Shown here piece after piece: positions 29,510-30,846 of a stretch of 64,000 bases of DNA; position 1 is the first letter of the stretch, and every line of letters begins with the position of its first letter. Position numbers and translations under genes: made by a program. Source of the stretch: Chloroflexi bacterium bin20 (GTDB taxonomy: Bacteria > Chloroflexota > Anaerolineae > Aggregatilineales > Phototrophicaceae); assembly GCA_002238485.1 (NCBI GenBank), contig MPMG01000007.1, positions 99,940 through 163,939 on the forward strand, given 5' to 3'. The notes under the pieces were generated by a model that was not told the origin of the DNA, made no database searches, and saw only the letters and a list, made by a program, of their open reading frames with translations.

Positions 29510-30193
29510 TCATGCCGGCGCATCAAACCAGAATTCTCCTGTCAAGCCGAGCTGGCGAAAGATGGCTTGCGCACCGCCTGCTGTCCGACCGCGAAAATCC
29601 GGCGACATGCGATCAGCATACCAGCGCTTTGCCAATTCCCAAACGCGAGGCAAGCTCAAAACGGCTCCTCGGTCAAGGCCCTCATGCCGCAGCCAGCCAA
29701 CAATCTCCTCGTCCGACCGGAAGAGCAAGATGCCCGCTCAGGTTTCTACAATATCATCGTACCAGTGGCGAAATGGCTGGGCGAAATGCACAAGCCCGCC
29801 CTCCGCCCCGACCAGTTGCCCGCCGCTTATCGCATAGCGAATTGGCTGGCGCGTCGAGGGATGCAGCGCTTCAATCTGTGCATCTTGCCCAAGCATGGCG
29901 GGTATGCCCAGCGAATCCCAGGCACAGTTGGCATAGAGCCAGCGACCGTCGATGCGCGCGCGGTAATCGGTTTGCACTGCCGAAAGCGGATGCGCCATCA
30001 GCACAGCGCCGCCATCTGCCAGCACCAGGGCATGCGCGTCGTGCAGCCGCTGCAAAGCTGCCTGTGCATGAGCGGGCTGGATGTCAAACTGCGCGGCGAT
30101 GTCACGGATGTCGGGCGCGCGTCCCGTTGCGACCAGGCGCGCATAGATATGCTGGCGGATCTGCCAGTCGGCTTCAGTGGGTGTCAATCTCAT
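29510..30193 (-). CDS. MerB-like alkylmercury lyase family protein, putative selenoprotein (UGA at codon 152)
   Basis: A single reading frame of 227 residues interrupted only by a TGA at 29738-29740. Residues 1-60 form the winged-helix-like part (IRDIAAQFDIQPAHAQ). LYANCAWDSLGIP gives Cys90 and Asp93, matching Cys96 and Asp99 of organomercurial lyase MerB. The TGA falls at residue 152, 62 residues after Cys90. In MerB the second catalytic Cys159 is 63 residues after Cys96. The frame continues with AGILLFRSDEEIVGWL, the conserved segment after that Cys. A hairpin with a GGUC loop starts after the UGA. I infer Sec152. The family cleaves carbon-mercury bonds, and many chromosomal homologues have unknown substrates. 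The gene lies between tsf and pyrH. An ATG at 30193 or TTG at 30187 starts it. A plain nonsense mutation is the alternative. Confidence 0.75.
29703..29731 (-). promoter_or_regulatory. SECIS-like hairpin of the MerB-like gene
   Basis: Directly after the in-frame UGA. Stems CUC/GAG and UCC/GGA are separated by a U-C mismatch and capped by a GGUC tetraloop. A lower AUCU/AGAU stem lies beyond a small internal loop. There are 19 nt between UGA and loop. Bacterial SECIS elements have this size, place and a G in the apical loop, and E. coli fdhF also presents GGUC in its loop. Confidence 0.6.
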
Positions 30194-30240: not shown

Positions 30241-30846
30241 TTAGCTGTCGCCGCCGATAGCAAAGCGCTGGAAGCGGCCGATGTTGATGGTCTCGCCCAC
30301 CTCGGCCACCGTCTCTTGCAGATATTGGCTGACTGTCTTGTCATCGTCCTTGATGAAGCCTTGCTCGAGCAAGACGATATCTTCGTACCATTTGTTCATT
30401 CTGCCTGCGACGATCTTGTCGGCGATATGCGGCGGCTTTCCCTCACCCAGCGCGCGCTCCAACTGGACGCTGGATTCTTTGGCCACTTCATCGGCGGGCA
30501 CATCCTCGCGCCGCACATAGCGGGGGTTCATGTTGGCGATGTGCATGGCGATATCTTTGGCGAAGGCTTTGAAAGGCGCGGTGGCGGCTACGAAGTCAGT
30601 CTCGCAATTGACCTCCACGATGACAGCTAGCCGATTGTCAAAGTGCAGATAATTGCCGATGACGCCTTCGTTGGCGCTTCGTCCTTTGCCTTGCAGCTTG
30701 ATGCCGTCTTTCAGCGCCTTTTCGCGCAGGAATTCGGCCGCCGCGTCAATATCGCCGTCGTGCATGACCAGCGCGTTCTTGCAATCCAGCGGTCCAGCGC
30801 CAGTCTTTTCCCGCAGTTGCTTGACTTGCTTTGCCGTTACTGCCAT
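30241..30846 (-). CDS. tsf: elongation factor Ts
   Basis: The protein has 201 residues, the short form of EF-Ts. The UBA-like N-terminus has REKTGAGPLDCKNAL (family RxxTGAGxxDCKxAL), followed by the core VEVNCETDFVAAT. The Tuf-binding residues TDFV are intact. It exchanges nucleotide on EF-Tu. It lies 138 nt after rpsB. That spacer contains a GTAGGGG hairpin that might attenuate read-through. Confidence 0.96.
   Translation of the reverse strand: MAVTAKQVKQLREKTGAGPLDCKNALVMHDGDIDAAAEFLREKALKDGIKLQGKGRSANEGVIGNYLHFDNRLAVIVEVNCETDFVAATAPFKAFAKDIAMHIANMNPRYVRREDVPADEVAKESSVQLERALGEGKPPHIADKIVAGRMNKWYEDIVLLEQGFIKDDDKTVSQYLQETVAEVGETINIGRFQRFAIGGDS

Follow-up and report, generated by a model that had tools for sequence, protein, structure and literature searches.

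An in-frame UGA at a catalytic cysteine column of a MerB-like Chloroflexota gene points to a family of predicted selenoproteins

Does a UGA codon that falls on a catalytic cysteine column of a MerB-like gene end the protein, or is it read as selenocysteine (Sec)? The question is raised by a gene in a 64,000-nucleotide (nt) stretch of contig MPMG01000007.1 (positions 99,940 to 163,939; hereafter the window) of Chloroflexi bacterium bin20, assembly GCA_002238485.1. On the minus strand, 151 open codons lie between 30193 and 29738, and the same frame continues to 29510 with one TGA (29738-29740) in between; reading the frame thus bore out the proposal, made from the sequence alone, that two open reading frame (ORF) halves share a frame and are split by a single TGA. 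The read-through protein has 227 residues, with Cys90 and Asp93 inside an NCAWD motif and the UGA as codon 152. Altogether, our results make it highly probable that the UGA is translated as Sec to give a 227-residue protein with a MerB fold, in which Cys90, Asp93 and Sec152 would likely break a carbon-metal bond; this confidence belongs chiefly to the selenocysteine, and the substrate is much less sure. The features concerned are the following.

29510..30193, minus strand: MerB-like predicted selenoprotein gene, 227 codons plus a TGA stop (29510-29512), a single frame over the internal UGA
29738..29740, minus strand: in-frame UGA, codon 152, predicted Sec, at the MerB Cys159 column; TGA in 65 of 80 related loci
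29924..29926, minus strand: Cys90 codon, at the MerB Cys96 column; Cys in 80 of 80 related loci
29915..29917, minus strand: Asp93 codon, at the MerB Asp99 column; Asp in 80 of 80 related loci

The catalytic residues of MerB are Cys96, Asp99 and Cys159 (excerpts of PMC8261052 and PMC4525700), and its mechanism is built on these three residues (excerpts of PMC4525700). In phmmer alignments to PDB sequences, Cys90 and Asp93 pair with the C and D of the MerB CALD motif and codon 152 falls on the first Cys of the MerB Cys-Cys pair, confirming the placement of all three positions on catalytic columns in the sequence-only reading; since the C160S entry 3f2g has Ser at the following position, the column of codon 152 is that of Cys159. 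The MerB profile PF03243 scores the read-through protein at 93.7 bits (cut-off 27), with residues 70-192 matched and the match spanning the UGA, and reaches 86.3 bits in the genome search with the stop read through. AlphaFold2 predicts a single continuous structure for the read-through chain (the final TGA also being read as one extra residue), with a mean predicted local distance difference test score of 96.6 and a predicted template modelling score of 0.92; this structure has the MerB fold, and structural alignment gives about 20% identity to MerB. The score against the NCBIfam MerB equivalog NF009710 is 62.2 bits, under the cut-off of 193; from its catalytic set the Cys96 and Asp99 columns are kept and the Cys159 column holds the UGA. 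Compared with MerB (PF03243; PDB 3f0o, 3f2g and the MerB2 entry 5c17), which has Cys159 and Cys160, the window protein therefore has a predicted Sec followed by Ala; it also differs in lying under the equivalog cut-off, in having no mer neighbours and in belonging to a genome in which MerA stays below its cut-off.

A search of 5.8 billion proteins returned 248 homologues, and 120 were listed, one being the window's own. Among those listed, 117 measure 132-171 residues, and each of these has as its last residue the threonine that precedes the UGA; the other 3 are full-length and carry Cys in the column. That gene finders stop the protein there in 117 of 120 listed homologues is what speaks for a real stop, with a 151-residue product or a pseudogene whose downstream part is a decaying remnant, and we consider this very improbable given what the DNA of the relatives holds. 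A scan of genome contigs gave 86 confirmed loci, of which 80 were kept, and all 80 have Cys90 and Asp93. Column 152 is TGA in 65, TGC in 8 (L088, L089, L091-L095, L099) and outside the alignment in 7 (L082, L086, L087, L090, L096-L098; the match in L082, from Ilumatobacter, is not readable in a single frame); the hairpin and frame counts below exclude these 15 loci. Record names place the 65 TGA loci in Chloroflexota/Anaerolineae, Acidobacteriota, Gemmatimonadota, Calditrichota, KSB1 and Actinomycetota (six phyla). In each of them the stop at the catalytic column is always TGA and the frame stays open for another 64-90 codons, nearly always finishing near a conserved FW pair, whereas the remaining two forward frames across the same stretch are open in only 23 of 132 cases, so that the UGA and its extension together exceed chance. 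For 20 chosen close pairs, the ratio of nonsynonymous to synonymous change (pN/pS) is 0.10-0.56 after the UGA, below 0.6 throughout, versus 0.04-0.53 in the 60 codons before it. The Cys held at the column by the Cys forms and the one continuous, high-confidence fold likewise speak against a real stop. A TGC or TGT turned into TGA by a sequencing or assembly error has a negligible probability: the independent assemblies of L020, L021 and L022 (84%, 84% and 75% protein identity) share the TGA, as do 62 further loci, which argues against such an error. The Cys homologues that had been called for as a check on the selenocysteine thus exist, as 3 full-length listed proteins and 8 TGC loci, and the in-frame UGA aligns with a homologue Cys, as is asked of bacterial selenoproteins.

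Downstream of the UGA lies a candidate recoding signal, a bacterial selenocysteine insertion sequence (bSECIS).

29708..29725, minus strand: predicted bSECIS hairpin, a stem of at most 7 pairs with a GGUC loop starting 19 nt past the UGA and one U-C mismatch in the window

The criteria of the bSECIS model are published (excerpts of PMC13188914), and the hairpin of the family fits that model. In all 66 sequences (the window plus the 65 TGA loci) a hairpin with a 4-base loop is possible from 19 nt downstream, the loop being GGUC in 59 and GUGA in 7. Over 61 distinct rows, 89.2% of the cells of the seven pairs are paired versus 82.7% in shuffles, and the covariation score is 0.269 versus 0.146, with none of 500 shuffles as high; both values are above those of all six slid versions of the hairpin. 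Both sides have changed in five pairs, a number reached by 14 of 500 shuffles. In the window, folding over 56 nt gives -20.4 kcal/mol, and the minimum free energy of the 42 nt after the UGA lies within the criterion in 61 of 66 rows. Codons in the hairpin are frozen, with Arg written CGG in 55 of 55 cases and Ser written TCG in 55 of 59, as opposed to 20% and 29% elsewhere in the same genes (the seven GUGA rows, with Arg as CGT and Glu replacing Ser, stand outside these counts). Four rows (L060, L063, L067, L070) have Trp in place of Arg, and there the partner base, which lies in the following codon, has changed to compensate, as though pairing in the RNA mattered more than the residue.

The genome of the window (3.66 Mb in 22 contigs, 94% complete) contains all four components that had been named for a check of the Sec machinery: tRNA-Sec (65.6 bits, above cut-off; anticodon tca by ARAGORN), SelB (342.5 bits), SelD (398.5 bits) and SelA (541.2 bits), the three proteins also above their cut-offs. 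Its SelD gene (L017:1501-2436) has an in-frame TGA within CAGUASK, making SelD itself a predicted selenoprotein, so that at least one more selenoprotein is predicted for the organism. Across relatives, 31 genomes with the UGA gene were tested, and 26 of them have SelB above cut-off. In a sample of 400 genomes from the phylum, 46 had a family match (own genome included), and among those tested SelB is above cut-off in 15 of 16 UGA-form genomes versus none of 4 close Cys-form genomes; it is also present in three genomes carrying other UGA copies (G168, G042, G195). The four Cys genomes span two families; within one family, f33, SelB is present in four genomes of the UGA form and absent from the one of the Cys form. 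SelB is frequent in the class in any case, occurring in 18 of 20 genomes without a family match, so that finding it counts as weak evidence and the Cys-form result alone is telling.

A sister clade carries the replacement further. In L130-L133, L148-L155, L158 and L159 (duplicate places being L143 = L132, L145 = L133, L147 = L131 and L148 = L130), UGA stands at both catalytic Cys columns, and the Asp99 column holds Glu, once Asp. This is a predicted two-selenocysteine site, in which the other metal-binding Cys has also been replaced by UGA. No convincing hairpin of its own was seen for the first UGA of this clade; all 13 intact double-UGA loci have the full CUGGC/GCUGG-type pairing, and since the same pairing is present in the four C/U loci of this clade (L144, L156, L157, L160), where the first codon is Cys, protein constraint may explain it. 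The 16 regions around the sister-clade genes have little in common among their neighbours. Many sister-clade metagenome proteins (P0123-P0187) show Trp at both catalytic columns, and this is the support for reading the UGA as tryptophan, or through a near-cognate tRNA, with a residue other than Sec at position 152. Where the family was read from DNA, though, the codon is TGA (65 loci), TGC (8) or uncovered (7) and no Trp codon was seen, the Sec machinery and the SECIS-like hairpin are present, and the gene's own stop is TGA; the Trp in those predictions is probably a gene finder reading TGA as Trp, and either route to a residue other than Sec at position 152 is most unlikely.

Selenocysteine at codon 152 is thus our preferred reading, supported by the frame and the position of the UGA on the Cys159 column, by the Sec machinery of the genome and the conserved hairpin, and by the Cys-form relatives and the continuous predicted fold. 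The Cys-form homologues, the machinery and the TGA shared by independent assemblies uphold what the sequence-only reading had claimed. In the mechanism that we envisage, SelB and tRNA-Sec would serve ribosomes at the UGA, recruited by the hairpin 19 nt downstream; the Sec152 selenolate and Cys90 would capture an organometal such as organomercury, Asp93 may assist in protonating the carbon that leaves, and the metal would depart with cell thiols. Selenolate is a better soft-metal ligand than thiolate and more fully deprotonated at neutral pH, making it plausible that Sec would give a stronger or different lyase.

A MerB-related selenoprotein has a precedent in SaoL (NF040728; Haft and Gwadz 2023), listed as a MerB-like organometallic lyase with a CU motif (excerpts of PMC13188914). 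Like the window protein, SaoL is MerB-related and predicted to contain one Sec; it differs in its motif, the window protein having TU (SaoL motif from the same excerpts). The window protein scores 45.4 bits against the SaoL profile and ten relatives, two of them Cys forms, score 24.6-56.0 bits, all under the cut-off of 140. The profile has 159 positions, the last of which falls on the Sec column in the one alignment reaching its end (L134), and SaoL therefore seems to lack the approximately 75 residues after Sec, a comparison made with the profile and not with a SaoL sequence. Two other prokaryotic selenoproteins related to metals, a putative mercuric transport protein and a metal-binding protein with UxxU, likewise have Sec predicted in mercury- or metal-linked proteins, but belong to other families (excerpts of PMC13188914). 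Apart from SaoL, no MerB in those excerpts has Sec at either or both of the catalytic columns, and the main texts of PMC2398784 and PMC5029168 have no passage on MerB, mercury, alkylmercury or Chloroflexi. In the open-access literature searched, which did not include two papers by the authors of SaoL, we found neither a two-selenocysteine MerB nor the window's family.

Several observations weigh against the proposal as a whole. In the RNA, at least as many further pair types occur in 353 of 500 shuffles, and two of the slid versions exceed the hairpin in this count; the outermost two pairs form in just 52 and 40 of 66 rows; the energy criterion is missed by 5 of the 66; and the window's own hairpin, with its mismatch, is not unusually stable (z -0.60). 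Among the 31 UGA genomes, G010 and G028 have only a SelB fragment and G021, G022 and G026 have none, G277 has no SelB at a stricter E-value, and the frequency of SelB in non-matching genomes has been given above. In the protein, the MerB Cys160 column holds Ala153. As to mercury, no conserved mer neighbours were found at the window locus, the family loci or the sister-clade regions, and the best MerA match in the own genome is below cut-off (337.1 versus 454.45). An organomercury substrate is therefore a guess, and MerB without MerA has been said to raise questions (excerpts of PMC8261052). The immediate neighbours are housekeeping genes.

30241..30846, minus strand: upstream neighbour, elongation factor Ts (tsf), PF00889
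28727..29509, minus strand: downstream neighbour, amino-acid kinase family ORF, PF00696, which is probably pyrH (UMP kinase)

Given its place between tsf and pyrH, the gene probably shares the expression of the translation genes instead of being mercury-induced. In 28 of 66 loci it has the tsf and pyrH clusters on either side, with about 2 kb of additional DNA separating it from tsf in L030 and L037, and in the 96 of 103 ORFs scanned around 28 other loci no Pfam family recurred in more than three. This housekeeping location, the lack of a recurrent metal-related family in those 96 proteins, the score under the MerB equivalog cut-off and the presence of MerA above cut-off in just 1 of 32 single-UGA genomes make it possible, at somewhat less than an even chance, that the protein is a selenoprotein with a MerB fold and not an organomercury lyase, acting on another organometal or organometalloid (in which part this alternative overlaps with our own explanation) or serving as a soft-metal binding or redox protein. 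On the other side, the MerB Cys/Asp/Cys(Sec) triad is kept on a MerB fold, and triad and modelled fold argue for a MerB-like bond cleavage. MerA is above cut-off in 4 of 38 genomes, 3 of them among the 6 double-UGA genomes (G387, G682, G444), on a different contig from the double-UGA gene in each; these three genomes make a mercury link possible for the double-UGA form.

Annotation cuts these proteins short at the UGA, and they likely represent an overlooked family of enzymes, predicted to depend on selenium for metal cleavage. We lean slightly towards a wider picture, in which selenium organometal lyases of several phyla are hidden by gene callers and the metal-gripping residues of MerB switch between Cys and Sec, the extreme being a double-Sec site (Sec91, Glu94, Sec157) in Chloroflexota, probably Dehalococcoidia, that would cleave organometals outside mer operons by a new chemistry. 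Because annotation stops at the UGA, MerB surveys by full-length proteins or by the three catalytic residues probably miss such genes, and estimates of methylmercury-degradation capacity may be too low for environmental Chloroflexota, Acidobacteriota, Gemmatimonadota and Actinomycetota. Since the same active site occurs naturally as Cys/Cys, Cys/Sec and Sec/Sec, the contribution of selenium to metal-carbon bond cleavage could be tested directly.

Two further genes stand apart. L161 (G743), a relative of the sister clade, has UGA at column 91, an extra TAG and Ala at the acidic column, forms 4 of the 5 pairs of the CUGGC/GCUGG-type pairing and is possibly decaying. A more MerB-like gene (L135:2011-2655, G042) has UGA at codons 88 and 163, a two-UGA reading that comes from one genome; a possible 7-bp stem with a CGUGC loop lies downstream of its first UGA, and the second is followed by a CUUCUUCUGGUCAGAAGAA hairpin.
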